A stretch of 64,000 bases of DNA. It comes from Leifsonia sp. ZF2019 (GTDB taxonomy: Bacteria > Actinomycetota > Actinomycetes > Actinomycetales > Microbacteriaceae). The stretch covers positions 1,674,001 to 1,738,000 of the forward strand of contig NZ_CP065037.1 of NCBI RefSeq assembly GCF_019924635.1. The letters run 5' to 3'. The translations under genes and the position numbers were made by a program. This document shows, piece by piece, positions 1-19,207 of this stretch. The notes beneath the pieces were generated by a model that had not been told where the DNA came from, ran no database searches, and was given only the letters and a program-made list of their open reading frames with translations. Numbering within the stretch: the first letter of the stretch is position 1; each line of letters opens with the position of its first letter.

Positions 1-968
1 GCCAGAAGCCGGCGCTTGCCGGTCGCGTCGTCGAGCGCCGCACGGTACTGCTCGGCGCGTGCGGGCACGTCGGCGAGCACCTCGAGCTTGCGTCTGGTGG
101 TCTCGAAGACGTCGTAGAGGGCGGAGGCCTCGCGGTAGCTGGACAGCGTGGTCTCCCAGCGCGAGAGTGCGCGCGGCTCGGTGAGAACGAACTGCTTGAA
201 CAGGTCGTCGATCGAGAACACACCCTTCGACGCCTGCGCCCGGCGCAGCAGCGTGAGGGCCTTCAGCTGTGACTCGTCGCTGCCGCCGATGCCGAGCTCG
301 GTGCACAGGCGAACGCGGAACTCGGGCTGCGAGCCGGTCACCAGGTCGCGGACGGGGTCGACGAGCCGGCCGAGCGAGCCGCGCGTCAACGGCGACGAGC
401 TGCCCGGCTCCGGCCGCAGCTCGGCCAGGCGCGTCAGGGGGAACTCGCCCTGTACGAAGACGTAGACCGTGGCGGCGGTGACCTCGTCCTGCGTCGCGGT
501 GTCGCGACCGAGCCACGCCAGGCGAGCGGCCGTGATCGTCTCGCCCAGTTCCGTGCGCCAGGTGATGGCCGCGCCGGAGGCGAAGGCGGTTCCGAGCGGA
601 CGCAGGAAGTGCGTGGTCGTGACATCGGAGCCCGCCTCGCGGACCTCATCGGTCTTACCGCGCGCGTAGCTGTAGACGGTCCGCTCCGACCGCTGGCGGG
701 TGTCGTCGCGCGCCGCCCGGTTGAACTCCTGGGGATTGGGCATGACGACGGCGGCCATCGCGTCGAGCACTGTGGACTTGCCGCGCCCCGTCGGGCCGAG
801 GATCGCAAGACCTCCGCGGCCGACGGGCATGGTGTGGAGGTCGTCGTAGCTGCCCCAGTTGAGCAGCTGCACCTGCTCGATCCGGAACTGACCGCTGTGG
901 ATGAGCCCGTCGGCCACGGGGAGGTCGTCGTCCAGCTGTTCGGGGCCGGTCGTCAGCAGATCGGTCAC
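1..968 (-). CDS. jetC: JetC, SMC-like ATPase of Wadjet system (5' part only)
   Basis: Read from the minus strand, an open frame begins with GTG at 968 and runs off the left edge (322 codons visible, no stop). Residues 58-66 form a Walker A of the SbcC/MukB type (GPTGRGKST), preceded by LNWGSYDDL, the typical N-terminal strand of MukB/MksF/JetC ATPases. The GTG overlaps the jetB stop by 4 bp (GTGA), which fixes the start and indicates coupled translation. In Wadjet systems JetC is the SMC-type motor of a JetABC complex that extrudes plasmid DNA before JetD cuts it. The coiled coils, Walker B and the expected jetD lie outside the window. Assignment rests on the Walker A plus jetA/jetB synteny. 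Confidence 0.85.
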   Translation of the reverse strand, partial: MTDLLTTGPEQLDDDLPVADGLIHSGQFRIEQVQLLNWGSYDDLHTMPVGRGGLAILGPTGRGKSTVLDAMAAVVMPNPQEFNRAARDDTRQRSERTVYSYARGKTDEVREAGSDVTTTHFLRPLGTAFASGAAITWRTELGETITAARLAWLGRDTATQDEVTAATVYVFVQGEFPLTRLAELRPEPGSSSPLTRGSLGRLVDPVRDLVTGSQPEFRVRLCTELGIGGSDESQLKALTLLRRAQASKGVFSIDDLFKQFVLTEPRALSRWETTLSSYREASALYDVFETTRRKLEVLADVPARAEQYRAALDDATGKRRLL

Positions 969-1684
969 GCGTCCACCTCCGTGGCGTCGATGCGGGTGTC
1001 GTCGGCGTCCGCCCCGTCGTCGCCGCGCAGCTCGGCGCCGCTCGCTTCCTGGAAGAGGCGTGTCAGGTGCGCGAGCTCGGTGGTCGTGACCAGCGGCACG
1101 ACGGCGGGTGAGACGACATAGAGATCGGGGTCGTCGGTCTCGGGGACGAGCAGCCCGATCCGCTCCATCGCCGCGATCGCCGCACGGATGCGCCGGTCGA
1201 CGCGCACCTCGTCGTGCGCGGCGTCGGTCTGGAATCGGCCGAGGAACTCGGAGATGTGGTCACGGCTCACGGTCACCGCGTCGTCGGAGGCGTCCGTGTA
1301 CGCGTGCTCCTGACGCAGCAGGACGAGCAGCAGCGACGCGTCGCGCGACAGCGGCTTCTCGCGACGGAGGAGCACGGGGGCGCCGTCCTCGGCGCTCTGC
1401 CGCTTGAACGCCACCTCGTGGTCGCGGTCGATCGACAAGGTGAGGAAGATCTCCTCAAGACGGGTGCGCACCTCGTCCTCGTGATCGATCAGCCCGCCCC
1501 ACGCCTCCGGATGCGTCGAACGGGTGATGAACCGGCTGGTCAACAGGGCGACCAGTGCGCGCCGGGCGGCGAGCGGGAGCCGCTCGTCGGCGGCGTCGCC
1601 GAACGCGTCGGTCGCGCCGTCGGCGTCGTTCGTCGCCGCCTCGGCCCCACGGTCCGATCCGGTCTCGGTGATGATCTCGCTCAT
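965..1684 (-). CDS. jetB: JetB, DUF4194 (MksE-like kite subunit of Wadjet)
   Basis: 239-residue acidic protein with the DUF4194 pattern: a winged-helix-like body (residues about 35-215) containing FITRSTHPEAW, LRREKPLSRDASLLLVLLR and a C-terminal acidic tail. DUF4194 proteins are the MksE/JetB kite-type subunits that bind the kleisin and the SMC ATPase. The first about 35 residues are low-complexity Ala/Asp/Thr and probably disordered. The ATG at 1684 overlaps the jetA stop (ATGA) and its own stop overlaps the jetC start, so jetA-jetB-jetC are translationally chained. Size and position match type I Wadjet operons. Confidence 0.85.
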   Translation of the reverse strand: MSEIITETGSDRGAEAATNDADGATDAFGDAADERLPLAARRALVALLTSRFITRSTHPEAWGGLIDHEDEVRTRLEEIFLTLSIDRDHEVAFKRQSAEDGAPVLLRREKPLSRDASLLLVLLRQEHAYTDASDDAVTVSRDHISEFLGRFQTDAAHDEVRVDRRIRAAIAAMERIGLLVPETDDPDLYVVSPAVVPLVTTTELAHLTRLFQEASGAELRGDDGADADDTRIDATEVDA

Positions 1685-3234
1685 CGTTCCGTCCTCCCGC
1701 CGCGTGCCGCGGCCGTCTCATCGTCCGCGCCGCCGAAACGGGATCGCGGGAAGGTCACCTCGCGGGCCGGCTCGTCCGGTACGTCGATGCGGACGGTGTC
1801 GGTGCCGTCCTGCACCGCGTCCCGCTCTGCGGCGTGGTCGAGGAGGCTGATCAGGAGGCCGAGCCGGCGGAACTCCGGCGGCGTCGCCGCGAAGACCTCG
1901 GCTCCGGTGACCGTGCCGCGCTCCGCCAGGAGGCGCTGGACGGTCTCCTGCACGGCGTCCGGTCCCGTCCCGACGGCGAGGCGCAGTGCGGCTCGCTCCG
2001 AATCGGGCAGCGCGTCCCTGCTCTCGGTCACGGCGACGCCGATCTCGGGCCGTTCGCCGCCGCGCCACACCTGGGTCTGCGTGATGTCGGTCAGCGCCCA
2101 CGGGCCGAGGCCGAGCACATCCTCCGGCACCGACACCGGTCCCGGACGCACCTGCGCCCAGTGCGCTCCCGCGGCGAGGGCCTGATCGGCGAGCGAGAGG
2201 AGGCGCTGGTGCCGGGCAGCGCCCGACCGGCTCAGGAACCGGCGCAGCGACGACATCCAGCGCAGGTAGGTCTCCTGCACTGTCTGCTCCTCCGCGAGGA
2301 GCGAGCCGATCAGGGTCTCCAGCTGCATGCGCTGGCGCTCGGTCATCCCCGTCGCGGTGTCCGGCTGGGAGAGCACGCGCTCGAGGTCGGCGCGCATGCC
2401 GTCGAGTCCGCGCGACGAGAGCATCGTGGCGAAGCCGCGGTACGCGCGCCCCTCCGGTGTCTGCTCGAGGAGGTCGTTGTCGCGGAGGTACTGCTCGACC
2501 AGTGCGCCTTTGCCGACCTGCTCCTCGGTCGCGCGGCGGGCGACCTCGCGGTGCCGCTGCTCGACCATGGCGCTGAGCCGGCGGAAGTCCTCGGGCAGGG
2601 AGGCGGTGAGGCGCAGCACCTCCCGCAGCTGGCGACGCACCGCTTCGCCGTCGACCGTCTCGAGGCCGCCCGCGGCGATGCGCTCGCGCCGGGCCTGCAG
2701 CTGCGCGATCTCGTCGTCGATCCGCGCGAGCTGAGTCCCGACGTCGGGGTCGGCCATGTCGGCGAGCTGGTGCACCGCGTGCGCGATGCTGCCGAAGCGG
2801 GCCTCCGACACGACGGAGTCCGCCTCCACCAGCTCGCGCACGATGCGGAGCGCCTGGAGGGAGTGCTGCGACAGGCGGTATTCGGCGCGCCCCTCGCGGT
2901 CGTGGGGCCGGGAGCGAACGAGCCAGCGGTTGTCGACCCAGGTGCGGCAGTAGTCGGCGGGGGCGGAACGGCGGGGGAGTGCCGCACCGTCGGCGGGCGT
3001 GTCCATGGCGGCGGCGTCGTCGGAGGCGGGGGAGGCGTCGCCCTCCGCGATCGTGCCGAGCGCCTCCGCCACCTTGCCGTGGAACCAATCGGCGGAGACC
3101 GGGCCGTCGGCGAATTCGAGGTGGCGTGAGAACAGGGGGAGGATCCACCGTCCGTTGTGGCTGCGCAGCAGCGCCCAGGTGGGATGCTGCTCCCAGGCGT
3201 CCGCGACGGTGTCGGCGGCGAGGGCCTCGTCCAT
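1681..3234 (-). CDS. jetA: JetA, DUF3375 (kleisin-like subunit of Wadjet)
   Basis: 517-residue DUF3375 protein, the first gene of the operon. Features include CRTWVDNRWLVRS and YRLSQHSLQALRIVRELV near residues 100-150, typical of the N-terminal winged helix of JetA/MksB-like kleisins, followed by long charged helices (residues about 180-330). The ATG at 3234 was chosen because GGAGGA lies 4 nt upstream and because the frame further upstream runs through the fMet tRNA and its terminator. Family length is about 480-520 residues, so the protein looks complete. JetA bridges JetC heads and JetB. The gene starts only about 40 bp beyond the terminator of the tRNA gene. Confidence 0.85.
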   Translation of the reverse strand: MDEALAADTVADAWEQHPTWALLRSHNGRWILPLFSRHLEFADGPVSADWFHGKVAEALGTIAEGDASPASDDAAAMDTPADGAALPRRSAPADYCRTWVDNRWLVRSRPHDREGRAEYRLSQHSLQALRIVRELVEADSVVSEARFGSIAHAVHQLADMADPDVGTQLARIDDEIAQLQARRERIAAGGLETVDGEAVRRQLREVLRLTASLPEDFRRLSAMVEQRHREVARRATEEQVGKGALVEQYLRDNDLLEQTPEGRAYRGFATMLSSRGLDGMRADLERVLSQPDTATGMTERQRMQLETLIGSLLAEEQTVQETYLRWMSSLRRFLSRSGAARHQRLLSLADQALAAGAHWAQVRPGPVSVPEDVLGLGPWALTDITQTQVWRGGERPEIGVAVTESRDALPDSERAALRLAVGTGPDAVQETVQRLLAERGTVTGAEVFAATPPEFRRLGLLISLLDHAAERDAVQDGTDTVRIDVPDEPAREVTFPRSRFGGADDETAAARGGRTER

Positions 3235-3317: not shown

Positions 3318-3394
3318 TGGTTGCGGGGGCAGGATTTGAACCTACGACCTCTGGGTTATGAGCCCAGCGAGCTACCGAGCTGCTCCACCCCGCG
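3318..3394 (-). tRNA. Initiator tRNA-fMet (CAT)
   Basis: 77-nt cloverleaf with a CAT anticodon. Initiator hallmarks are seen: an unpaired C1-A72 end (CGCGGGG with CCCCGCA), and three G-C pairs at the base of the anticodon stem (GGG...CCC). CCA is encoded at 3318-3320. The D arm (GAGCAGCTCGGTAGCTC) and T arm (AGGTTCAAATCCT) are intact. Confidence 0.95.
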
Positions 3395-3528: not shown

Positions 3529-4593
3529 ATGGCGAGTGTTGCACAGAAGTACCGGGTCGTCGTGATCGAGGACGACCCGGATGTGGCCTTCTTCATGAAG
3601 ACCGTGCTCGAGAAGCGGGCGGACGCGGTGGTCGCCGCGGTGACGGACCCGTCGCGCGCGCTTTCGACCGTCGCCGACTTCGAGCCCGATCTGGTGCTGA
3701 CCGACATCGAGATGCCGGGCATCTCGGGGCTCGACCTCCTCAAGGATCTGCGCGCGCAGTACCCGGGGATGCCGGTCGTCGTCATGACGGCGCACGTCTC
3801 CGTCGACTACGCGGTCGCGGCTCTGCGCAGCCAGGCGGACGAGTTCCTCACCAAGCCGGTCGCGTCGGCCGACCTCGTGTCGATCGTGACGCGCTTGGCC
3901 GAGGAGGGGCGCACCAAGCGCTCAGCCAACCGCCAGCAGGTGGTCCTCGCGGTCGGAGCCCATCCCGATGACGTCGAGATCGGCGTCGGCGGCATCCTCG
4001 CCGCGCACCGCGACGCCGGCAACCAGGTGGTCATCCTGACCCTGTCGCGCGGAGCGCGGGGCGGAGACGCCAACGACCGTCAGCACGAGTCGCTCGCGGC
4101 CGCCGAGCTGCTCGGAGCGCGACTGTTCCTGGAAGACCTGGAGGACACCCGGATCTCGGCGGCCGACCCGACGGTCGGCATCATCGAGCGCGTCGTGCGC
4201 GAGGTGAACCCGGACATCGTCTACACCCACTCCGCGCACGACCGCCACCAGGATCATCGGGCGGTGAACGCCGCCGTCAGCGTGGCGACCCGCATCGTGC
4301 GCACGGTCTGCTGCTTCCAGAGCCCCAGCGCGACGATCGACTTCCGGCCGACCCGGTTCGTGCCGATCGACGGATTCACCGACGCCAAGCTCGCGCTCAT
4401 CGACTGCTTCCGCTCGCAGGACCTGCGCGCGTACCTCGAGCACGACTTCGTGCTCGCGACGGCCCGCTACTGGTCGCGCTTCGGCGGCGGCACCTGGTGC
4501 GAGCCGCTCGAGGTGATGCGCGACACGGCGGACATCTCCATCCCCGCCTCGACGATCTCGACCGAGGCCCGAATCCGAAGGACCGCCGAATGA
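3529..4593 (+). CDS. Receiver domain fused to PIG-L (LmbE-like) deacetylase
   Basis: 354-residue two-domain protein. Residues 8-125 are a CheY-like receiver: acidic pocket E14/D15/D16, phospho-acceptor D59, switch T87 and K109. Residues 138-345 are a PIG-L/LmbE deacetylase with AHPDDVE (zinc ligands H145, D148, catalytic D147) and HSAHDRHQDH (third ligand in 237-243). PIG-L enzymes are zinc hydrolases that remove acetyl groups from GlcNAc-type substrates. The fusion suggests phosphorylation-controlled enzyme activity, which is inference. It is the first gene of a chain of seven with 4-bp overlaps; its TGA overlaps the next ATG. A histidine kinase is encoded five genes downstream. No DNA-binding domain is present. 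Substrate unknown. Confidence 0.85.
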   Translation: MASVAQKYRVVVIEDDPDVAFFMKTVLEKRADAVVAAVTDPSRALSTVADFEPDLVLTDIEMPGISGLDLLKDLRAQYPGMPVVVMTAHVSVDYAVAALRSQADEFLTKPVASADLVSIVTRLAEEGRTKRSANRQQVVLAVGAHPDDVEIGVGGILAAHRDAGNQVVILTLSRGARGGDANDRQHESLAAAELLGARLFLEDLEDTRISAADPTVGIIERVVREVNPDIVYTHSAHDRHQDHRAVNAAVSVATRIVRTVCCFQSPSATIDFRPTRFVPIDGFTDAKLALIDCFRSQDLRAYLEHDFVLATARYWSRFGGGTWCEPLEVMRDTADISIPASTISTEARIRRTAE

Positions 4594-5588
4594 CCAGAGT
4601 TCTCGTGACCGGCGCGGGCGGGCCCGCGGGCGTCGCCGTCATCCGCTCGCTGCTGGCGAGGGACGACGTCGACGTGCTCGCCGCCGACATGGACGGCTGG
4701 GCGAGCGGCCTCTACCTGGTGGCCGCGGGGAATCGCCGCATCGTCCCCGCAGGCCGCTCGGAGACTTTCGTCGACGAGCTCATCACGATGTGCCGCACCG
4801 ACGGCGTCGACGTGCTGTTCTCGACGGTCGACGTCGAGCTGCCGGGGCTGGCCGCCCGCCGGGACGAGCTCCTCGCGGTCGGTACGGCCCTCGCGGCGCC
4901 GAGCTACGAGACTCTCGTCACCTGCCTCGACAAGCACGCCCTCGCCCAGCGGGTGGACGGCGCGGCGCGCATCCCGCTCACCCGGCTGCTCACTGCCGAG
5001 GGCGTCGCGGAGGATTGGGACTTCCCGGTCATCGTCAAGCCCCGCAGCGGTGCGGGATCCCGCGGCGTCCGGCTCATCCCCGATCGCGACGCGCTGGAGG
5101 GGCTGACGCTCGACGACAGCATCCTCATCCAGGAGAACCTGCCGGGTGAGGAGTTCTCGGTCGACGTGCTCGCCGGTCTCGACGGCGGCGTGATCGCCGC
5201 GGTGCCGCGCTCGCGCGAGCGCGTGGACTCGGGTGTCTCGATCGCCGGGCGCACCGTCAAGCGCGCCGAGCTCTCCGACACGGCGGCGGCCGTGGCCAGG
5301 GCGATCGGCCTCACCGGCGTCGCCAACGTGCAGCTGCGCTACAGCGTGGAGGGCGTGCCCGCGCTGCTCGAGGTGAACCCGCGCTTCCCCGGGGCCATGC
5401 CGCTCACCATTGCGGCCGGCGTCGACATGCCGTCCCTCCTGCTCGACCTGGTGCTGGGCCGCGAGGTGCCGTCGTCCGTCGACTTCCGCGAGCTCGCCAA
5501 CGTGCGCTTCCTCGAAGACGTCTTCCTCGACCCCGCGGACGTGCTGGTCTCGGAGAACGCGGCGCACGCGGACGAGCTCGACGAGTGA
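4590..5588 (+). CDS. ATP-grasp domain ligase, CarB-like
   Basis: 332-residue protein. An N-terminal Rossmann-like preATP-grasp fold starts with VLVTGAGGPAG (residues 4-14). The ATP-grasp fold follows, with the lysine K150 and Gly-rich loop SGAGSRG (153-159), hinge QENLPGEEFSVDV (181-193) and the Mg-binding EVNPRFPG (261-268). ATP-grasp enzymes activate a carboxylate as acyl-phosphate and join it to an amine or thiol. The CarB/amino-acid-ligase type is the nearest match, and the substrate cannot be told from sequence. The ATG overlaps the upstream stop and the TGA overlaps the next GTG, so it is coupled to the deacetylase and PHP genes. Confidence 0.85.
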   Translation: MTRVLVTGAGGPAGVAVIRSLLARDDVDVLAADMDGWASGLYLVAAGNRRIVPAGRSETFVDELITMCRTDGVDVLFSTVDVELPGLAARRDELLAVGTALAAPSYETLVTCLDKHALAQRVDGAARIPLTRLLTAEGVAEDWDFPVIVKPRSGAGSRGVRLIPDRDALEGLTLDDSILIQENLPGEEFSVDVLAGLDGGVIAAVPRSRERVDSGVSIAGRTVKRAELSDTAAAVARAIGLTGVANVQLRYSVEGVPALLEVNPRFPGAMPLTIAAGVDMPSLLLDLVLGREVPSSVDFRELANVRFLEDVFLDPADVLVSENAAHADELDE

Positions 5589-6361
5589 CCGGCGCACCCG
5601 CCGTGCTGGACGTCTCCGCGCTGCTGCGCGGCGATTACCACGTGCACTCCACCTTCTCGGACGACGCCGTCAGCACCCTCGCCGAGAACATCGCCGCTGC
5701 GAAGGCCGCCGGTCTCGCGCGTCTGCGACTCAACGACCACGTGCGCGCCTCCACCACCTGGGTACCCGAGTTCGTCGCGGCGGTCGCCGCAGAGCCGGTC
5801 CCGGCCGGGCTGACCGTCGTCACGGGCGTCGAGACCAAACTGCTGGACGTGTCGGGCGCGGTCGACATCCCGACCGACCTCGTGGTCGGGCGCGGCGGCG
5901 TCGACGCGATCGTGATCGGTGACCACCAGTTCCCCGGCACGGACGGCCCCTGGTCCCCGCAGGCGACGCGTGACCGGATCGCCGCGGGCCTCAGCGCGGA
6001 CGACGCCCTCGACCTGCTCGTCACCGCAAGCATCCGGGCGATGGAGCGCACCCCGCACGCACAGCTCGCCCACTGGTTCTCCATCCTGCCGAAGGTCGGC
6101 CTCGACGAGGCCGAGCTCGGCGCCGACCGGCTCGCCGCCTGGGCGCAGGCCGCGGCAGCGACGGGGACGGTCGTCGAGGTGAACGAGAAATGGGAGTGCC
6201 CGGGAGCCGACGCGATCGTCGCCCTCCACCGCGCGGGAGCGCGTATCGTTGCCTCCACCGACAGCCACATCGCGACCGACGTCGGGCGGTACGACCGCGT
6301 GACCGCGCTCCTCACCGCGGCGGCCGGCAAGATCGCGACCGAGGATGAGGACGAACAATGA
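5585..6361 (+). CDS. PHP-domain phosphoesterase
   Basis: 258-residue single-domain PHP protein. Metal ligands are visible in order: HVHS (H19, H21), D26, LNDHVR (D51, H52), a central glutamate in TGVETK, HW in AQLAHWFS, and STDSH near residue 225. This resembles histidinol-phosphatase-type PHP enzymes, which hydrolyse phosphomonoesters with a trinuclear metal site. It starts with GTG at 5585, overlapping the ATP-grasp stop by 4 bp. No other histidine-biosynthesis gene is adjacent, so a role in the local operon is more likely than HisK. Substrate unknown. Confidence 0.8.
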   Translation: MTGAPAVLDVSALLRGDYHVHSTFSDDAVSTLAENIAAAKAAGLARLRLNDHVRASTTWVPEFVAAVAAEPVPAGLTVVTGVETKLLDVSGAVDIPTDLVVGRGGVDAIVIGDHQFPGTDGPWSPQATRDRIAAGLSADDALDLLVTASIRAMERTPHAQLAHWFSILPKVGLDEAELGADRLAAWAQAAAATGTVVEVNEKWECPGADAIVALHRAGARIVASTDSHIATDVGRYDRVTALLTAAAGKIATEDEDEQ

Positions 6362-6513
6362 GCCCCGTCGAGCTGAACCGTGCCCAGCGCGCAGAGCTCC
6401 AGCGCGAGATCGACCAGAACCGCCGCTGGGAGCTGCGCCTGCCGGTCTACGGGGGGATCGCGCTGCTCGTCCTCGCGGCGATCGTCGTCGTCCGGGTGGT
6501 GTTCTTCTCGTGA
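6358..6513 (+). CDS. 51-residue single-pass membrane protein
   Basis: Small ORF, 51 residues. A charged amphipathic N-terminal helix (residues 5-26, rich in Arg, Gln and Glu) precedes one hydrophobic segment (residues about 30-49, GGIALLVLAAIVVVRVVFF). It was found from overlaps: its ATG overlaps the PHP stop (ATGA) and its TGA overlaps the GTG of the next receiver gene. Both junctions argue that it is translated. It may anchor or modulate the downstream sensor kinase or recruit the soluble enzymes to the membrane; this is inference. No family recognised. Confidence 0.75.
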   Translation: MSPVELNRAQRAELQREIDQNRRWELRLPVYGGIALLVLAAIVVVRVVFFS

Positions 6514-6896
6514 GCGGAGCGGTTCCCCGCATCGTCATCGCGGATGACGATGACGACATCCGGGGGCTCATGGTGATCGCGGCGAAGCGCGCCGGCGTGG
6601 AGGTCGCCGCAGCTGTGGACAACGGCCGCGCCGCCCTCGACGCGCTGCTCGCCGAGGACGTCGACCTCGCCGTGCTCGACATCTCGATGCCCGCATTGAA
6701 CGGCGTCGAGGTGGCGGAGGTGATCCGGGCCCAACGGCCCCGCACCCGCATCCTCATGGTCTCGGCGTCGGTGCAGCTACTCACGGATCACGGCGTCGTC
6801 GCCGAGCGGTCCGACGGCTTCATCGTCAAGCCGTTCAGCCCGCGCGTGCTGTCGGAGCGTATCCGGCAGATGCTCGAGATCGAGGCCACCGCATGA
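6510..6896 (+). CDS. Stand-alone receiver (CheY-like) response regulator
   Basis: 128 residues, receiver domain only. Acidic patch D12-D16, phospho-acceptor D57 (VLDISMP), S85, K107 (VKPF). There is no output domain, so signalling must pass through protein contact or phosphotransfer. The GTG at 6510 is chosen because it overlaps the stop of the 51-residue membrane gene by 4 bp and places the first beta strand at residue 7; longer in-frame alternatives would run through that gene. The ATG of the histidine kinase overlaps its stop, which pairs the two as a likely cognate set. Confidence 0.88.
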   Translation: MSGAVPRIVIADDDDDIRGLMVIAAKRAGVEVAAAVDNGRAALDALLAEDVDLAVLDISMPALNGVEVAEVIRAQRPRTRILMVSASVQLLTDHGVVAERSDGFIVKPFSPRVLSERIRQMLEIEATA

Positions 6897-8701
6897 CGCT
6901 CGACCGCTGGCTCGGCCGTCTCCCGATCGACTCGCCGTCGGTCCTCATGAAGCAGGTCCCCACCCTGGTGGGATTCCTGCTGGCCCTCACCGTCGCGCTG
7001 ATCCCGAATTTCGTGCCGGTCGACAACCTGGAGTTCGTCTGGGCGTCGATCGGCCTGATCGTCGTTGCCACCGTCCTCGCCGCCGTCGTGCCGTGGCCCC
7101 GGTTCCACGGGGCCTGGATCGTGGTCGTCCCCGTCCTCTCACTGTTCGCGATCGGCCTGCTGCGTCTGGGCACCGGCGGCGCGGCCTCGCCGATCGTCGT
7201 CATCCTGTTGCTCCCGTTCGTGTCGATCGCCACGGAGGAGGGGCGGAGGAACATCCTGATCGCGACGCTGGGCATGTTCGCCGTGCTGTTGGCGCCGATC
7301 TTCGCGACCAGTGTCCCCAGCACACCGGTCGACCTCGTACGCGCACTCTTCTCGCCGGTCGTGTATCTGATCCTCGCAACGGTCGTCAACGAGATCGCGC
7401 ACCGGTTGCGGGCGCAGCTCATCGTCACGCGGGCGGCGGCCGAGCAACGCGCCGAGCTGCTCGCCCACGCCGTCACGGCCCAGGACGAACTCGTGCTCAA
7501 CGAGGCGAGGCTCAAGACGGCGAACCGCCTCATCCAGAGCATCTGGAACGCAGTCACCGAGCAGTCCGTCATCGGCACCGATCTCGACGGCCTCATCGAC
7601 GTCTGGAACCCGGGCGCGGAGAAGATGCTCGGACTGACCGAGAAGCAGGTCGTCGAGGGTCGCCGGCACATCGTCGAGTTCCATCTCGAATCCGAGCTCG
7701 AGGATCGGCTGCGCGACATGGATGCGCGCTTCACGACGGTCGCCAGCGCGGACGACTTCTCGGCCCTGGTCGATACAGTGCGCGCCGGGTACGCCGATGT
7801 CCGCGACTGGACCTACGTGCGGGCCGACGGCAAGCTCGTGCCGGTGCAGGTGGCCGCCACTCCGCGGCTCGACGAGAACGGGCACCGGGTCGGCTTCATC
7901 TTCGTCGCGACCGATATGACCCAGGCTCGCGAGTTCGCGCGCCTCAAGGACGAGTTCGTCGGGCTCATCTCGCACGAGCTCCGCACCCCGCTCAGCTCGA
8001 TCCTCGGCTACCTCGAGCTCATGCGCGACGACGACGAGTCGCCCCTGTCGGACGAGCAGCTGCAGTATCTGGGCGTCGCCGAGCGCAACGCCCACCGGCT
8101 CCTGCGTCTGGTGGGGGACCTGCTCTTCACCGCGCAGGTCGAATCGGGCCGCTTCCCCCTGGACATCACGGACGTCGAGCTCAGTTCCGTCGTCGCCGCC
8201 TCCGTCGAGTCCGCGCGGCCGGTGGCCGGGGCCGCTGGGGTCGCGCTGGTCGGTGAGGTGCCCGAGCAGCAGGTGGTCGTCCGGGGCGACGCGGTACGCC
8301 TGGGACAGGCCGTCGACAACCTCATCTCCAACGCGGTGAAGTTCACTCCGTCGGGCGGCACGGTCACCGTGTCGCTGCGATCCGGTCGGGACGAGGCCGT
8401 CATCGCGGTGACCGACACCGGCATCGGCATCCCCGCGGTCGAGCTGAGCCAGCTCTCGCAGCGGTTCTTCCGCGCGTCCACCGCGACGCGCAACGCGGTC
8501 CCGGGCGTCGGGCTCGGCCTCACGATCACGAAGGCGATCGTCACCGCCCACGGCGGACGGCTCGACATCGCGAGCGAGGAGGGCATCGGCACCTCGATCA
8601 GTCTGGCCCTGCCGGTGGAGACCCCGCAGCCGGTCGTGGAGGCGCTCCCCGGCGCCGACGCGCGGCCCGCCGCCGGGTCGGTGCAGGGCACGGCATCATG
8701 A
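6893..8701 (+). CDS. Membrane sensor histidine kinase with PAS domain
   Basis: 602 residues. About six hydrophobic segments occupy residues 20-175, with a short coiled linker after them, a PAS domain (about 210-345, VIGTDLDGLIDVWNPGAEKMLGLTE), a HisKA box with phospho-acceptor H361 (SHELRTPLSS), and an HATPase domain with N box (NLISNAVKFTPSGG), G1 (DTGIGI) and G2 (GVGLGLTI). No receiver or HPt domain is attached. It probably phosphorylates the adjacent single-domain receiver and perhaps the receiver-PIG-L protein. The membrane part is not a recognised sensor family to me. Overlaps both neighbours by 4 bp. Confidence 0.9.
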   Translation: MTLDRWLGRLPIDSPSVLMKQVPTLVGFLLALTVALIPNFVPVDNLEFVWASIGLIVVATVLAAVVPWPRFHGAWIVVVPVLSLFAIGLLRLGTGGAASPIVVILLLPFVSIATEEGRRNILIATLGMFAVLLAPIFATSVPSTPVDLVRALFSPVVYLILATVVNEIAHRLRAQLIVTRAAAEQRAELLAHAVTAQDELVLNEARLKTANRLIQSIWNAVTEQSVIGTDLDGLIDVWNPGAEKMLGLTEKQVVEGRRHIVEFHLESELEDRLRDMDARFTTVASADDFSALVDTVRAGYADVRDWTYVRADGKLVPVQVAATPRLDENGHRVGFIFVATDMTQAREFARLKDEFVGLISHELRTPLSSILGYLELMRDDDESPLSDEQLQYLGVAERNAHRLLRLVGDLLFTAQVESGRFPLDITDVELSSVVAASVESARPVAGAAGVALVGEVPEQQVVVRGDAVRLGQAVDNLISNAVKFTPSGGTVTVSLRSGRDEAVIAVTDTGIGIPAVELSQLSQRFFRASTATRNAVPGVGLGLTITKAIVTAHGGRLDIASEEGIGTSISLALPVETPQPVVEALPGADARPAAGSVQGTAS

Positions 8702-9498
8702 CCGCCGTCGCGGTCGCCCAGTTCACCCCGCGGGACGACAAGACGCACAACCGCGACACGGTCGCGGGGTTGGTGGCTGTCGCAGCCGAGCGCGGTGCCC
8801 GGCTCGTCGTCTTTCCCGAGTACTCCTCGTACTTCACCGACCCGCTGGGTCCGTCGTTCGCGCGCAACGCGGAGGCGCTCGACGGCGCGTTCGTCGGCGC
8901 GCTCGCCCGTGCGGCGCGGGATCACGGCGTCCACATCGTCGCCGGTCTGGTCGAGAGCACCGGGGAGCGGCGTCGCTTCGCCAACGCCCTCGTCGCCGTG
9001 GCGCCGAGCGGCGACGTCGTCGCGGTCTACCGCAAGCAGCACCTGTACGACGCGTTCGGCTCCCGCGAGTCCGACTGGGTCGTCGCCGGTGAGACGGTCG
9101 AGCCGCAGATCTTCGAGGTCGACGGGCTCCGGGTGGGGATGCAGACCTGCTACGACCTGCGATTCCCGGAGGTGACGCGCACCCTCGCCGACGCCGGCGC
9201 CGAGCTGGTGGCGATCCCCGCGGAGTGGGTGCGCGGGCCGCTAAAGGAACATCACTGGTCCACGCTCCTGCAGGCGCGCGCGATCGAGAACACGCTCTAT
9301 GTGGCGGCCGCCGACCACACCCCGCCGATCGCGGTCGGGGGCAGCGCGATCGTCGATCCGATGGGTGCCGTGGTCGCGGGCGTCGCCGAGGTGGCCGGGG
9401 TCGCGATCGCCGACGTCTCCCGGGACCGGGTGCGGCAGGTCCGCGAGGTCAATCCCGCTCTCGCCCTGCGGCGCTACCGGGTGGTTCCACGCGATTGA
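8698..9498 (+). CDS. Carbon-nitrogen hydrolase (nitrilase superfamily amidase)
   Basis: 266 residues with the complete Glu-Lys-Cys triad: E41 (VFPEYSSYF), K113 (YRKQHLYD) and C151 (QTCYDLRFPE). CYDLRFPE is typical of the Nit/omega-amidase branch acting on deaminated glutathione or keto-acid amides. It is the last gene of the overlapping chain (ATG inside the kinase stop). In this operon it could hydrolyse an amide made by the ATP-grasp ligase, or act as a detoxifier of a side product; neither can be decided here. The stop at 9498 is followed by a convergent aminotransferase gene. Confidence 0.88.
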   Translation: MTAVAVAQFTPRDDKTHNRDTVAGLVAVAAERGARLVVFPEYSSYFTDPLGPSFARNAEALDGAFVGALARAARDHGVHIVAGLVESTGERRRFANALVAVAPSGDVVAVYRKQHLYDAFGSRESDWVVAGETVEPQIFEVDGLRVGMQTCYDLRFPEVTRTLADAGAELVAIPAEWVRGPLKEHHWSTLLQARAIENTLYVAAADHTPPIAVGGSAIVDPMGAVVAGVAEVAGVAIADVSRDRVRQVREVNPALALRRYRVVPRD

Positions 9499-12820: not shown

Positions 12821-13873
12821 ATGGAACGCATGCCGGACGACACCCCGAACACCGTGCCCGGTGTCTCGTACGTGATGCCCGTGCTCAACGAGGCGACACA
12901 CGTCCGCGCCGCCGTCGACAGCCTGCTGGCGCAGGACTACGCGGGCCCGATCGAGGTGACCATCGCCCTCGGTCCGAGCATCGACGGAACCACCGAGCTC
13001 GTGGAGGAGCTCGCGGCCGTCGACCAGCGCATCCGAGTCGTCGACAACGTCGTCGGGTCCACGCCGGCCGGGCTCAACCTGGCCATCCGCGAGTCGCACT
13101 TCCCGATCATCGTCCGCGTCGACGCGCACAGCGTGCTTCCCGTCGACTACACCCGCATCGCCGTGGAGACGATGCTCGAGACCGGTGCCGACAACGTCGG
13201 CGGTCTGATGGACGCGCAGGGCACCACCGATTTCGAGCGGGCGGTGGCGCGCGCATACGGCAGCCGGGTCGGTCTGGGCGGCACCAAGCTCCACGTGGGC
13301 GGCTCCGCGGGCGCCGCCGAGACGGTCTACCTGGGCGTGTTCCGACGCGACAAGCTGCTGGAAGTCGGGCTCTTCGACGAGGAGATCAAGCGCGGCCAGG
13401 ACTGGGAGCTGAATCGGCGCATCCGGCACTCGGGCGGTACGGTCTGGTTCACCCCGCGGCTGACGGTCACGTACCGCCCGCGACCCAATCTCTATCGGCT
13501 GGGCCGCCAATTCTTCTCGACGGGTATCTGGCGCGGCGAGCTGGCTCGCCGGTATCCGGCCTCCAATGGCCTGCGCTATTTCGCTCCGCCCGTGATGGTT
13601 CTGGGCGTCGCCATCGGCACGCTCCTCGGCCTGGTCGGCATCGTGCAGAATGCGGTGGGGGCCGCGCCGTGGCTTCTGTGGGGCTTCGCCGCGCCCGCCT
13701 TCTACCTGCTGATCGTCGTGGTCTCCGCCGTGCTCTGGGGGCGTCGCGACGGTTTTCGCCCCTTCCTCTGGTTTCTCGTAGTCTTGCCGTGCATTCATTT
13801 CTGCTGGGGGACCGGTTTCGTGCTCGGGTACCTGTCTCTCACGCGCAACATCACGGCCCATACGGGAAGGTAG
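12821..13873 (+). CDS. Family 2 glycosyltransferase with C-terminal membrane segments
   Basis: 350 residues. GT2 fold with YVMPVLNEATHV at the N-terminus, the acidic motif RVDAHS near residue 105 in place of the usual DxD, and a QDWELNRRI acceptor-site motif near residue 195. Four hydrophobic segments (about 245-345) anchor it to the membrane. It resembles succinoglycan/EPS-type transferases that add sugars to lipid-linked intermediates. A TAGGCT box at 12793-12798 could be its promoter. The next gene starts 2 bp after the stop, so GT2, CDP-alcohol transferase and the second GT2 form an operon. Confidence 0.85.
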   Translation: MERMPDDTPNTVPGVSYVMPVLNEATHVRAAVDSLLAQDYAGPIEVTIALGPSIDGTTELVEELAAVDQRIRVVDNVVGSTPAGLNLAIRESHFPIIVRVDAHSVLPVDYTRIAVETMLETGADNVGGLMDAQGTTDFERAVARAYGSRVGLGGTKLHVGGSAGAAETVYLGVFRRDKLLEVGLFDEEIKRGQDWELNRRIRHSGGTVWFTPRLTVTYRPRPNLYRLGRQFFSTGIWRGELARRYPASNGLRYFAPPVMVLGVAIGTLLGLVGIVQNAVGAAPWLLWGFAAPAFYLLIVVVSAVLWGRRDGFRPFLWFLVVLPCIHFCWGTGFVLGYLSLTRNITAHTGR

Positions 13874-13875
13874 GC

Positions 13876-14694
13876 ATGTCAGCACAGGGTAGCGGGGCGC
13901 GGACGACCCGCCCGGCCTCGATCGCCGAGCTCAAGGCGGTCGCACAGCCGCCCGAGGTCCGCGGCCGTCGCAACGCCGAGCACTGGACGGCGTCGCTGTA
14001 CCTGCGCATGCTCTCGCCGTACCTCACGTGGATCCTGCTCAAGACCTCCATCTCCGCCAACGGCGTCACCGGACTGATGATCCTGACCGGCTGGGCCACC
14101 GCGGCCAGCCTGCTCGTCCCGGGCATCGGGGGAGCGGCGCTTGCGCTCGTCCTGGGCCAGCTGCAGATGCTGGTCGACTGCTGCGACGGTGAAGTCGCGC
14201 GCTGGCGCAAGACGTCGTCGCCCGCCGGGATATTCCTCGACAACGTGGGCCACTACACCACGGAGACGCTCATCGCGATCGTCCTCGGCGTGCGCGCCGC
14301 GGGCTTCCCGTTCGAGGCGCCCCAGGACTTCCTCTGGACGAACCTCGGTACGCTCCTCGCGCTGCTGATCGTGCTGAACAAAGCTCTGAACGACATGGTC
14401 CGGGTCGCCCGCGCCAACGCAGGCCTCCCCAAGCTCGCGGACACGAAGGCTGCGTACGCGCCGACCAACGGTGTGATCGCCTCGCTCCGCCGGGCGGCGC
14501 GCTACCTGCCGTTCCACCGCCTGTACCACTCGGTCGAGCTGACGATCCTGATCTTCGTGTTCGCGATCGTCGGGCTCTTCATCGGTCCGGTCCTCGCGGA
14601 TCGGATTCTTCTCTCGGCTCTCGTCCCGCTCGCCCTCCTCGCCGTGATCGGGCACTTCGTCGCGATCATGGCCTCCCGGCGCGTCCGTGGCTGA
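13876..14694 (+). CDS. CDP-alcohol phosphatidyltransferase family membrane protein
   Basis: 272 residues with about six TM segments. The CDP-alcohol phosphotransferase motif is seen as D101-x2-D104-G105-x2-A108-R109-x8-G118-x3-D122-x3-H126. The last position is normally Asp, proposed as catalytic base in this family; here it is His. Family enzymes transfer a phospho-alcohol from CDP-alcohol to a hydroxyl acceptor at the membrane. Its place between two GT2 genes, plus a nucleotidyltransferase gene at 19.2-19.9 kb, suggests a phospho-polyol step in a cell-wall glycopolymer or glycolipid rather than ordinary phospholipid synthesis. Substrate unknown. Confidence 0.82.
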   Translation: MSAQGSGARTTRPASIAELKAVAQPPEVRGRRNAEHWTASLYLRMLSPYLTWILLKTSISANGVTGLMILTGWATAASLLVPGIGGAALALVLGQLQMLVDCCDGEVARWRKTSSPAGIFLDNVGHYTTETLIAIVLGVRAAGFPFEAPQDFLWTNLGTLLALLIVLNKALNDMVRVARANAGLPKLADTKAAYAPTNGVIASLRRAARYLPFHRLYHSVELTILIFVFAIVGLFIGPVLADRILLSALVPLALLAVIGHFVAIMASRRVRG

Positions 14695-15571
14695 GCAGCC
14701 CGCCGTCGGCGTCGTGGTGCTCACGCAGGGCACCCGCTCCGTCGAGCTGCGGCACGGTCTCGAGTCCGTGCTGGCGCAGCGGGGTGTTCGCATCGACATC
14801 GTCGTCGTCGGCAACGGCTGGGACCCGGCGACCGCCGAACCGCCCCTCCCGGACGGCGTCGCGGCGCTCGCGCTGCCCGAGAACCTCGGTATCCCGGCCG
14901 GCCGCAACCGCGGTGTTCCGCTCGTGAACGGCGAGTGGCTCTTCTTCCTCGACGACGATGCGAGCATCCCGTCTCCGACCTTCCTCGCCGACGCCATCGG
15001 CCTCCTCGTCGAGGATCCGTCGATCGGGATGCTGCAACCCCGGCTCGCCGACCCGGACGGCGGGGAATCGCCGCGGCGCTGGATCCCGCGGATCCGCAAG
15101 GGCGATCCGACGGCGTCGAGCACCGTGTTCTCGGTGCTGGAGGCGGCGATCGTGCTTCCTCGCACCGTGTTCGAGCGTGCCGGCGGGTGGGCCGATCCGT
15201 TCTTCTACGCCCACGAGGGCATCGATCTCGCGTGGAAGGTGTGGGATCAGGACAAGCGGGTCTGGTACGCGGGCGATCTCCTTGCCGAGCACCCGGCTGT
15301 GTCTCCCACCCGCCACGCCTATTACTACCGCCTCAACGCCCGCAATCGCGTCTGGTTGGCCCGGCGCAATCTCCCCGCCGTCCTCGTCCCGGTCTATGTC
15401 GGCTCGTGGACCGGCATCCAGCTCCTGCGCTGGTTCCGCAAGCCCGCGGTGCTGCGTGCCTGGTTCGGCGGCTGGGTCGAGGGGTGGCGCACGGATCCCG
15501 GTGAACGGCGGCCGATCCGGTGGCGCACCGTCTGGCGCATGGCACGTGCCGGGCGCCCGCCGATCGTCTGA
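14687..15571 (+). CDS. Family 2 glycosyltransferase (rhamnosyl/galactofuranosyl type)
   Basis: 294 residues. GT2 signatures: VVVLTQG at the N-terminus, ENLGIPAGRNRG near 65-80, FFLDDDA (DxD, about residue 87), and FFYAHEGIDLAWKVW (the ED-like acceptor motif). The downstream YYYRLNARNRVWLARRNLP motif is typical of actinobacterial surface-polysaccharide GT2 enzymes. It starts with GTG at 14687, overlapping the preceding stop by 8 bp. Likely cytoplasmic or membrane-associated through a C-terminal amphipathic region. Sugar and acceptor are not predictable. Confidence 0.85.
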   Translation: MAEQPAVGVVVLTQGTRSVELRHGLESVLAQRGVRIDIVVVGNGWDPATAEPPLPDGVAALALPENLGIPAGRNRGVPLVNGEWLFFLDDDASIPSPTFLADAIGLLVEDPSIGMLQPRLADPDGGESPRRWIPRIRKGDPTASSTVFSVLEAAIVLPRTVFERAGGWADPFFYAHEGIDLAWKVWDQDKRVWYAGDLLAEHPAVSPTRHAYYYRLNARNRVWLARRNLPAVLVPVYVGSWTGIQLLRWFRKPAVLRAWFGGWVEGWRTDPGERRPIRWRTVWRMARAGRPPIV

Positions 15572-17534: not shown

Positions 17535-18269
17535 TCAGCCTCCGTAGTCCTGGTTGTAGAGATCCAGAACGTCCGAGATCGGCCCATCGAGCACGAGTCC
17601 GCCCTTGTCGAGGTAGAGCCCGCGAGCACAGAACCGGCGCAGGTCCTTCTCGTTGTGCGAGACGAAGAACAGCGTCCGCCCGCCGGCGAGGAGCTCCTCG
17701 ATGCGCCGGTAGCACTTCTCGCGGAACCCCCGGTCGCCGACCGCCAGCACCTCGTCGACCAGCAGCACGGGCTCCTCCAGCTGCGAGATCACGGAGAAGG
17801 CGATCCGTACCTTCATTCCGCTCGAGAGATGCTTGTACGGCGTGTCCACGAAGTCGCCGATCTCGGCGAACCCGATGATCTCGTCGAAGCGCGCGTCGAT
17901 CTGAGCGCGCGTCATGCCGTGGAGGCCCGCGGTGAGGTAGACGTTGTCGCGGACCGTGAGGTCGTCCACGAAGCCGCCGGTGATCTCGATCAGCGGCGCG
18001 ACGCCCTCGTGCACGCGCACGGAGCCCTCGTCCGGCAGGAGCACGCCGGCGACGAGCTTCAACAGCGTCGACTTCCCCTGTCCGTTCCGGCCGACGACGC
18101 CGATCGCCTCGCCGGCCTCGACCCGGAACGAGACACCGCGCAGTGCCCAGAAGTCGTCCGGTCGCGTGCGCCGCTGGCGCGACGCGAAAAGGTCCTTGAA
18201 CGATCTCCGGCCACCGCGATTGCGGCGGAACCGCACGCCGAGCCCGGCGACCTCGATGACGGGCGCCAC
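17535..18269 (-). CDS. Polysaccharide/teichoic-acid ABC exporter, ATP-binding subunit (Wzt/TagH-like)
   Basis: 244 residues. Walker A GRNGQGKST, a characteristic insertion ITGGFVDDLTVRDNVYL, signature LSSGMKVR and Walker B VLLVDEVLAVGD: all typical of the ABC-2 glycopolymer exporter ATPases. No C-terminal carbohydrate-binding domain is present, so it is the short TagH/Wzt form. Its GTG follows the permease stop directly with no gap, so the permease-ATPase pair is one transcript. Likely exports the polymer assembled by the GT2/CDP-alcohol transferase genes nearby; that link is inference. Confidence 0.92.
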   Translation of the reverse strand: MAPVIEVAGLGVRFRRNRGGRRSFKDLFASRQRRTRPDDFWALRGVSFRVEAGEAIGVVGRNGQGKSTLLKLVAGVLLPDEGSVRVHEGVAPLIEITGGFVDDLTVRDNVYLTAGLHGMTRAQIDARFDEIIGFAEIGDFVDTPYKHLSSGMKVRIAFSVISQLEEPVLLVDEVLAVGDRGFREKCYRRIEELLAGGRTLFFVSHNEKDLRRFCARGLYLDKGGLVLDGPISDVLDLYNQDYGG

Positions 18270-19157
18270 TCAGATCTCCTTCAGCACATCGCGCTCGTAG
18301 CGCTTGAACACCAGCCAGCCGACCAACAGGATGACCACGGACATCGCGGCGCTCACACCGACGAGGAACCAGTCGAGCTCCGCCGCGAAGAAGGTCGCCC
18401 GATACAGGCTGAAGATGCCGGTGAGGGGGTTGAACGCGGACCAGAAGTGCAGCGAGAAGAGCGTGTCTCCGATCGCGTCCGGGTGGGCAGCCGCGTACGC
18501 GGCGCAGTGCTTGGCGGCGACGTCGGCGCCTCCGCAGCCTCCGGGCAGATCGCGCGCGCTGTAGATGATCGGCGACGCGTAGAACAGGAAGCGGAGGGCG
18601 AGCTTGACCACCCGCTCGAGGTCGCGGAAGAGCACGACGAGGGGGGCGATCAGGAGCCCGATCCCGATCGTGAGCACCGTCTGGATCAGCACGGCAAGCG
18701 GGAACAGCAGGATGTCGATGTTCACCCGCGCGCCGGTGGCGATCGCGAACACCGCGAGCACCGGCAGCGACAGCAGGAACTCGATGCCCTTGGATGCGAC
18801 GATGCGGTTGACCCAGATCGTGCGCGGGATCATCGTCGACCGGATGAGCTTGGACTCCCGCAGGAACGCCCGTGTGCTGTCCGACACCGCTCCGTTGAAC
18901 CACACCCACGGCAGCAGGGCCGCGAGCAGGAAGACGATGTACGGGTCCTCGCCGACGCCGCGATGGAAGATCACCGTGAAGACGAACCAGTAGATCGCGC
19001 TCATCACGAGCGGATCCAGGATCGACCACAGGTAACCGAGGGCGCTGGTCGAGTAGCGGACGCGGAGGTCGCGTTTGGTCAGCAACCAGAGGGAGTGCCG
19101 ATAGCGTGCGAAACGGGTCCGCTGCGCAGGGCGCACCTCAAGCGAAGAACTGGTCAC
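18270..19157 (-). CDS. Polysaccharide/teichoic-acid ABC exporter permease (Wzm/TagG-like)
   Basis: 295 residues, ABC-2 membrane fold with six hydrophobic segments. The N-terminal amphipathic RDLRVRYSTSALGYLWSILDPL and LLPWVWFNGAVSD are signatures of TagG/Wzm permeases. A short Cys-containing insertion (GGCGGADVAAKHCAAY, about residue 195) lies in an external loop and could form a disulfide. GTG at 19157 sits 8 nt after a TACGAT box, compatible with leaderless translation. Partner ATPase follows directly. Confidence 0.92.
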   Translation of the reverse strand: MTSSSLEVRPAQRTRFARYRHSLWLLTKRDLRVRYSTSALGYLWSILDPLVMSAIYWFVFTVIFHRGVGEDPYIVFLLAALLPWVWFNGAVSDSTRAFLRESKLIRSTMIPRTIWVNRIVASKGIEFLLSLPVLAVFAIATGARVNIDILLFPLAVLIQTVLTIGIGLLIAPLVVLFRDLERVVKLALRFLFYASPIIYSARDLPGGCGGADVAAKHCAAYAAAHPDAIGDTLFSLHFWSAFNPLTGIFSLYRATFFAAELDWFLVGVSAAMSVVILLVGWLVFKRYERDVLKEI

Positions 19158-19207
19158 GAGTACCCATCGTATTGATCGAAGCTGCGTGATCCGTCACGCG
19201 GCTTCGA

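Follow-up and report, generated by a model that had tools for sequence, protein, structure and literature searches.

Gene organization of the operon

In the window, which is the whole stretch of 64,000 nucleotides of the Leifsonia sp. ZF2019 genome that was analysed, seven open reading frames were read on the forward strand from position 3529 to position 9498. The first gene (3529 - 4593; 354 amino acids) codes for a protein that combines a receiver domain with a PIG-L (LmbE-type) N-deacetylase (RR-PIGL; Pfam Response_reg and PIG-L). It is followed by genes coding for an ATP-grasp ligase of the PRK12767/2pn1 type (4590 - 5588; 332 amino acids; Pfam ATPgrasp_Ter/ATP-grasp_3), a PHP-domain phosphoesterase (5585 - 6361, alternative start 5603; 258 amino acids; Pfam PHP, 3.8e-07), a peptide with a single transmembrane (TM) helix that belongs to no Pfam family (6358 - 6513; 51 amino acids), a stand-alone receiver with a GTG start (6510 - 6896; 128 amino acids; Pfam Response_reg, 1.2e-21), a histidine kinase with a membrane N-terminus, PAS, HisKA (H361), and HATPase_c (6893 - 8701; 602 amino acids), and a nitrilase-superfamily amidase, which is accessory to the core (8698 - 9498; 266 amino acids; Pfam CN_hydrolase, 2e-51). 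An earlier note, made from the nucleotide sequence, had described these seven coupled genes and assigned them to these families; all assignments were borne out by the Pfam profiles, which also found no DNA-binding domain in either receiver protein, as the note had stated. The 4-bp overlap claimed for every junction can be read at all six (ATGA or GTGA). That between the ATP-grasp and PHP genes hinges on the choice of the PHP start, as the codon-usage gene caller favours the later GTG (5603); with the same caller, this overlap was found in 57 of 79 loci. The gene order and the tight junctions were found again across genera, beyond what is expected by chance. A promoter and terminator scan gave no useful result.

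Conservation of gene content and gene order

Matches to RR-PIGL, the ATP-grasp ligase, and the PHP protein occurred together in all of 80 related actinobacterial loci from several genera, and a kinase match was present in 75 of them. These loci were the top-ranking 80 among 131 confirmed places, found with window-derived peptides as queries, so that the sample leans to near relatives. Gene calls came from a simple codon-usage caller, by which some genes were missed or shortened (e.g., in L010, L019, and L021). In the gene-called loci, the usual order was PIGL-ATPG-PHP-GT2-TM-(RR)-HK, a gene for a membrane GT2 glycosyltransferase lying beside those for the PHP protein and the membrane peptide in 65 of 81 loci. 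The nitrilase was matched in 23 of the 80 loci, on either flank of the operon, and was therefore rejected as a core gene. The operon is thus real and widely conserved among bacteria, and its gene order is kept outside this strain. The seven genes, which had been taken as the unit, are an incomplete set of the usual operon, which adds the GT2 gene and mostly does without the nitrilase gene.

A phylum-wide search with the ATP-grasp ligase yielded matches in 18 of 296 genomes (E<=1e-20), the source genome included, and the surroundings of seven of these matches were retrieved. RR-PIGL, ATP-grasp, PHP, and GT2 genes were all present in L164 (49% identity). No operon gene was called in the surroundings of L165, L167, and L172, and no gene at all in the latter two, which is uninformative because the caller was trained on the codon use of the source genome. 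Among eight relatives of G189, the only positive one was G189 itself. Literature searches on the family combination and neighbouring ideas, covering listings and the openings of abstracts, found no described pathway with this set, in agreement with the unfamiliarity of the combination signalled earlier. Likewise, the gene set is absent from the available passages of PMC7112194, the subject of which is PNAG operons.

A membrane glycosyltransferase encoded elsewhere in the genome

A GT2 gene of the source genome was located at G000:C1:3749053-3750543, where it stands alone, 2.07 Mb from the operon. Hydropathy and motifs indicate a membrane-bound protein with the QxxRW motif. Its relatives include PgaC, NodC, and cellulose synthase; the nearest NCBIfam family is PgaC_IcaA, with a score below the cut-off (118.8 versus 422.3 bits), as was also the case for the Nocardioides homologue (116.6 bits). 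With the PIG-L, ATP-grasp, PHP, and TM peptide genes in the window and the GT2 gene elsewhere, all five genes of the conserved core are present in the genome. The window probably contains the larger part of an operon that has been split in two, the likely synthase being encoded elsewhere.

A GT2 gene was found in 19 of 20 operon-bearing genomes tested (E<=1e-50), among them all 12 related Leifsonia genomes that have none in the operon. Two genomes with a partial operon had no detected GT2, namely that of L050 (at E<=1e-50) and G563 (at E<=1e-100), the operon of the latter being RR-PIGL-ATPG-HK, without PHP. Among 199 Microbacteriaceae genomes, the ATP-grasp ligase and GT2 were confined to the same 17, in four of which, all of one genus, the genes were unlinked. 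In an order-wide sample of 297 genomes, 14 contained the ATP-grasp ligase and 14 the GT2, 13 being shared; the sole GT2-only genome carried PIG-L-ATPG-PHP-GT2-TM with a diverged ATP-grasp. Furthermore, two Cellulomonas genomes contained the GT2 and TM peptide genes together, away from the operon.

The lineage of the Leifsonia GT2 differs from that expected by the ATP-grasp phylogeny (30 rows, L018 and L019 left out). Similarly, grouping of the orphan GT2 with its expected relative was rejected by an AU test (p 5e-48), the group being chosen after inspection of the first tree. Both results rule out that the orphan gene is a relocated operon copy and indicate that a second GT2 copy replaced a lost one; G340 contains both copies. 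Since the Leifsonia GT2 is of another lineage, its product could differ. Genes for an LLM flavin monooxygenase and an FMN reductase adjoin the orphan GT2 gene and, in Cellulomonas, RR-PIGL. A link of these genes with the operon was rejected, because the LLM family occurs in 193 of the 199 Microbacteriaceae genomes (148 above the cut-off).

Enzyme families

The PIG-L part of RR-PIGL is closest to BC1534/BshB by structure and, within the PDB, to BshB by sequence, its score being below the cut-off of the BshB1 family (86.5 versus 182.5 bits). A sequence comparison with the PDB gave E. coli YcdX (7e-05) as the sole relative of the PHP protein with E<=0.01. The HxH motif of the PHP protein and further His, Asp, and Glu residues are conserved over 78 rows. 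The nitrilase is nearest to the NCBIfam family de_GSH_amidase (NF033621; 239.3 bits, below the cut-off of 355). Indeed, GT2, PIG-L, ATP-grasp, and nitrilase all score under the cut-offs of their nearest function-specific NCBIfam families. The 51-residue peptide has its TM helix at the C-terminus (residues 32 - 50), preceded by conserved E17 and E25 (65 rows). Its gene lies directly 3' of the GT2 gene in most relatives with a GT2 in the operon, the two being adjacent in 52 loci, of which 44 show a 4-bp overlap. The ATP-grasp ligase scores above the Pfam cut-off of PF15632 (108.6 versus 29.1 bits), a feature shared with Ter-associated clusters. Unlike these, the source genome has no match to TerD (PF02342; 0 matches), so membership of a Ter pathway was rejected; among the seven operon proteins, there was no other match to a Ter family.

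Two-component signalling

RR-PIGL, which has no TM helix by hydropathy, contains the phospho-acceptor D59, the PIG-L motif HPDD (residues 145 - 148), and H240/H243. In its receiver, D59, T87, and K109 are present in all 81 aligned rows, D15 in 79, and D16 in 78, the exceptions being gaps apart from one E. The stand-alone receiver keeps D57 and K107 in at least 97% of 72 rows, and the histidine kinase, whose gene is adjacent, has intact H, N, and G residues (conservation over 72 rows). A few distant loci without a kinase match nearby have lost the receiver or show it in a decayed form; this matching of receiver and kinase is drawn from five distant loci. A kinase is present and the key receiver residues are kept in L164; PIG-L occurs without a receiver in L174 and L166, and has lost T87, K109, and the Pfam receiver match in L176 and L177, no kinase being found in the 9 - 17 kb retrieved for these four. 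Against this matching, the receiver is intact in five near loci (L023, L032, L046, L058, and L076) whose retrieved stretches contain no kinase, although each of these stretches reaches a contig end.

Judging from these sequence features, the two-component signal likely acts directly on the N-deacetylase, and the kinase may phosphorylate both the fused and the stand-alone receiver. The earlier note had proposed the enzymes or the membrane peptide as target, of which an enzyme is the likely one. Response regulators with enzymatic output, such as CheB and PleD, exist. RR-PIGL resembles them in the fusion of an intact receiver to an enzyme and in the kinase encoded adjacently, but differs in having an N-deacetylase as output. 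Among the papers listed in literature searches, none was found to describe a response regulator with such an output.

Proposed function of the operon

The products of the operon probably serve to synthesise and modify a sugar molecule of the cell surface. The reading towards which we lean is a pathway for an aminosugar glycan or glycolipid at the membrane, encoded by a split operon, in which the two-component signal would act on the N-deacetylase itself. The membrane GT2 would add or polymerise N-acetylhexosamine at the cytoplasmic membrane face, assisted by the small single-TM peptide. RR-PIGL would take off the N-acetyl group, the ATP-grasp ligase would use the amine thus exposed, or a different nucleophile, to attach a carboxylate to the product or to a precursor, and the PHP protein would strip phosphate from a precursor or product. 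Phosphorylation of the fused and stand-alone receivers by the membrane kinase would alter deacetylation directly, not via transcription. We infer the substrate, the product, the order of the steps, the direction of control, and the action of the kinase on these receivers, whereas the protein families, their intact catalytic residues, the conservation of gene order, and the co-occurrence with GT2 were observed. The BshB-like PIG-L part and the glycan-related surroundings of distant ATP-grasp relatives (L166, L168, and L169) also speak for this reading; the scores under the family cut-offs, the two genomes without a detected GT2, and the different lineage of the Leifsonia GT2 speak against it. 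PIG-L enzymes are mostly cytosolic and act on small-molecule substrates, so that a glycolipid or a soluble precursor fits better than a secreted polymer. The making, trimming, and breaking of a metabolite suggested earlier is tentatively narrowed here to the chemistry of a membrane aminosugar glycan or glycolipid. The sensor-controlled biosynthesis or modification system also proposed keeps its basis in the coupling of two-component and enzyme genes, but loses the seven-gene set as its usual unit.

A soluble pseudo-disaccharide has to be considered too, formed by glycosyl transfer, dephosphorylation by the PHP protein, deacetylation by PIG-L, and amide formation by the ATP-grasp ligase, with the nitrilase as repair amidase. 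Mycothiol and bacillithiol are made by such a logic of glycosyl transfer, deacetylation (MshB, BshB), and amide formation, and mycothiol also fits the combination of glycosyltransferase, phosphatase, deacetylase, and ligase. Fold and sequence place the PIG-L part with the BshB-type enzymes, and the nitrilase is nearest to a deaminated-glutathione amidase. However, the glycosyltransferase that is conserved is not a soluble enzyme but a membrane GT2 with QxxRW, whose relatives include PgaC, NodC, and cellulose synthase, the membrane peptide accompanies it both within the operon and in the two Cellulomonas genomes, the nitrilase is outside the core, and PIG-L falls under the BshB1 cut-off. The membrane GT2, the ATP-grasp ligase, and the two-component control set the operon apart from the bacillithiol and mycothiol systems. 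Such a molecule seems unlikely. A biofilm exopolysaccharide of the PNAG type, polymerised by GT2, partly deacetylated, and exported as a matrix with TasA/SipW-type fibres, seems somewhat less likely still. In the Pga and Ica operons (PgaC/PgaD, IcaA/IcaD), an N-deacetylase is encoded together with a membrane GT2 synthase and its small membrane partner, as found here, and PgaC_IcaA is the family nearest to this GT2. Moreover, distant ATP-grasp relatives sit in polysaccharide-type clusters: L166 contains PIG-L, a PgaC-like GT2, an exosortase, and ATP-grasp together, and those of L168 and L169 adjoin glycosyltransferases and exopolysaccharide-type sugar-phosphate transferases (about 270 bits, just below the cut-off of 295.6). 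In loci of Blastococcus and Cellulomonas, the operon has TasA-like and SipW-like genes as neighbours. Yet TasA, found in 30 of the 199 Microbacteriaceae genomes, occurs in one of the 17 operon-bearing ones and has no match in the source genome, so the matrix link is unsupported in this family. PNAG deacetylases (PgaB/IcaB) are of the CE4 type, whereas none of the seven proteins is an extracellular CE4 deacetylase according to Pfam, the deacetylase here being a TM-less PIG-L fused to a receiver. The GT2 is also far under the PgaC_IcaA cut-off, the TM helix of the partner peptide is a single one, and the operon adds ATP-grasp, PHP, and kinase genes.

The least probable of these alternatives is that the enzymes form an effector cassette of the regulator unrelated to GT2, their co-occurrence reflecting shared ancestry and ancestral linkage only. 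The restriction of the four unlinked cases to one genus, related genomes not being independent, and the two operon-bearing genomes without detected GT2 would agree with this. Against it stand the replacement of a lost GT2 by a second copy, the presence of both copies in G340, and the off-operon pairing of GT2 and TM peptide in Cellulomonas.

A bolder form of the membrane aminosugar pathway, which we put forward tentatively and with considerable doubt, is a new class of two-component output, in which receiver phosphorylation would directly switch N-deacetylation of a nascent membrane aminosugar and the ATP-grasp ligase would cap the freed amine. Actinobacteria would thereby make a glycolipid or polymer of a kind not described so far, containing an aminoacyl- or acyl-aminosugar. 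The core of PIG-L, ATP-grasp, PHP, GT2, and TM peptide would be ancient, and two-component signalling would have captured it later. If the membrane aminosugar pathway is true, a two-component phosphosignal is tied straight to a probable glycan-chemistry enzyme, bypassing transcription, and many Actinobacteria contain an uncharacterised conserved pathway. The seven-gene operon would then not be understandable alone, the likely synthase having to be sought elsewhere in the genome, and a set of five proteins is defined for reconstitution. Downstream of the core, L176 and L177 encode a secreted-looking protein without a Pfam, NCBIfam, or PDB match, two homologues of which are named lanthionine synthetase-like and glucoamylase, names that serve as hints only.

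Operon structure and conservation

The operon of Leifsonia sp. ZF2019 (window at G000:C1:1674001-1738000; genome size of 4.34 Mb) belongs to a real and conserved system, for which no description was found in the literature searched. Among named proteins, the closest ones come from Leifsonia. The positions of the seven open reading frames (3529-9498, +) claimed by the earlier note were confirmed, and profile matches agreed with its family assignments, namely a receiver fused to a PIG-L N-deacetylase (RR-PIGL), ATP-grasp, PHP, a membrane (TM) peptide, a receiver, a histidine kinase, and a nitrilase. The six 4-bp junction overlaps were present as read, except that the PHP start is uncertain according to the gene caller. 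Upstream, on the opposite strand, lie tRNA-Met (3318-3394, -) and, beside it, Wadjet-type genes for JetC, which the window start truncates, JetB, and JetA (3-3234, -). Six Leifsonia loci (L005-L007, L013, L015, and L017) have JetC/JetB/JetA gene clusters at the corresponding position, and others have different genes; given this variable gene content, the flank may be an insertion hotspot.

A contig scan with the ATP-grasp protein yielded 131 confirmed places, the best 80 of which were analysed, including Leifsonia, Okibacterium, Salinibacterium, Microbacterium, Agromyces, Pseudoclavibacter, Cellulomonas, Sanguibacter, Janibacter, Blastococcus, Nocardioides, Nakamurella, and others. The gene-order check proposed earlier revealed conservation beyond the strain, as RR-PIGL, ATP-grasp, and PHP were each found by sequence search in 80/80 of these best places, with recurrent tight junctions, the kinase in 75/80, and the nitrilase in 23/80. 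Gene-caller clustering of 81 loci (these 80 plus the window) gave RR-PIGL in 80, ATP-grasp in 81, PHP in 79, a membrane glycosyltransferase (GT2) in 65, kinase in 75, receiver in 64, nitrilase in 23, and the TM peptide in 52, with a longer Blastococcus form in 13. The commonest order was RR-PIGL, ATP-grasp, PHP, GT2, TM peptide, one or two receivers, and kinase; in Blastococcus, receiver and kinase are instead upstream. Overlaps of 4 bp occurred at RR-PIGL/ATP-grasp (31/80 pairs), ATP-grasp/PHP (57/79), PHP/GT2 (44/64), GT2/TM peptide (44/52), TM peptide/receiver (32/45), and receiver/kinase (48/62).

At 17 loci, the kinase gene is followed, after a median gap of 125 bp, by an FAD-linked oxidase gene (Cellulomonas, e.g. 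L048:12576-13976), whose nearest NCBIfam model is BagK/FevA1, below cut-off. Two lineages have genes for TasA-like (PF12389) proteins and SipW-like signal peptidases bordering the operon: Blastococcus (L030 among other loci) and Cellulomonas (L059, 9253-10697, among other loci).

Displacement of the glycosyltransferase

The window shows the system with its probable synthase, GT2, displaced. No GT2 gene was called at the operon locus of the window or at L005-L015, L017, L050, L059, and L076, the last being a short contig ending inside PHP. The window's genome contains one clear relative outside the operon (G000:C1:3749053-3750543; 52% identity to a Nocardioides homologue, 546 bits; second-best match 40 bits), neighboured by non-operon genes. 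At E<=1e-50, GT2 was found in 19/20 operon-bearing genomes searched, that of L050 being the sole exception; all 12 Leifsonia genomes with a GT2-less locus carry it elsewhere (as two contig-end pieces for L014), as do those of L059 and L076, where a TM peptide follows it.

Among 199 Microbacteriaceae genomes (85 genera), ATP-grasp (E<=1e-60) and GT2 (E<=1e-100) occurred in an identical set of 17 genomes (11 genera), with the reservation that related genomes are not independent. The genes were adjacent in 13/17; the four genomes that have them apart all belong to the window's genus, and one of these, G438, has them on separate contigs. Genome G340 has one linked and one unlinked GT2 copy. For comparison, TasA-type proteins occurred in 30/199 genomes (one among the 17) and the LLM family in 193/199. 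An order-wide sample (297 genomes, partly overlapping) had ATP-grasp in 14, GT2 in 14, and both in 13. Genome G513, containing PIG-L without receiver, ATP-grasp, PHP, GT2, and a 44-aa TM peptide, was scored GT2-only because its ATP-grasp is too diverged for the threshold; the ATP-grasp-only genome G563, which carries RR-PIGL, ATP-grasp, and kinase but neither PHP nor GT2, departs from the pattern at the thresholds used.

The ATP-grasp tree (30 rows) grouped Leifsonia with Diaminobutyricibacter L016 (support 100/98). The GT2 tree (80 rows) placed the orphan Leifsonia copies and the G340 orphan in one clade (100/100), nested in a clade of 17 rows that includes L018, L019, L022, and L027 and lies apart from L016; constraining the orphans to L016 was rejected (p-AU 5e-48, 32 rows; group chosen after the first GT2 tree was seen). 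This conflict and rejection argue that a second copy, gained or duplicated, replaces the lost operon copy. Such retention is consistent with GT2 being functionally required.

Receiver and kinase

No kinase was found in the stretches fetched around the distant loci L174, L166, L176, and L177 (17, 16, 16, and 9 kb). PIG-L lacks a receiver in L174 and L166; in L176 and L177 it keeps an N-terminal extension, with T87 and K109 lost and no Pfam receiver match. L164 retains D15, D59, T87, and K109, and a kinase and an OmpR-type regulator adjoin. This tracking of receiver state with kinase suggests, from small counts, that the enzyme core is older than the signalling part and that the receiver is retained for a kinase. 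Five of the best 80 loci (L023, L032, L046, L058, and L076) run counter to it, with the receiver intact and no match for a kinase; all five extend to a contig end, so that a kinase could be encoded beyond it. A probably secreted protein without family match follows the TM peptide in L176 (9091-10896) and L177 (9598-11097), both without kinase found; two homologues' names hint at an alpha/alpha toroid.

Probable glycan context

The system is probably a pathway for an aminosugar glycan or glycolipid, and one that two-component signalling controls directly; its chemistry is inferred. In the distant actinobacterial locus L166 (51-4836, -), genes for a choice-of-anchor P protein, PIG-L, PgaC-like GT2, exosortase, and ATP-grasp lie in a row and may represent a sortase-linked version of the pathway. 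At loci L168 and L169, the relative of ATP-grasp adjoins glycosyltransferases and a sugar-phosphate transferase (nearest EPS_sugtrans, ~270 bits versus a cut-off of 295.6). A possible surface-glycan cluster lies 3-10 kb downstream of the operon in the window (12830-15571, +; 17535-19900, -), with genes coding for two glycosyltransferases, a CDP-alcohol phosphatidyltransferase, an ABC-2 type transporter pair, and an NTP transferase. Further on, an integrase-core (rve) open frame (39353-40009, +) is probably a piece of an insertion sequence.
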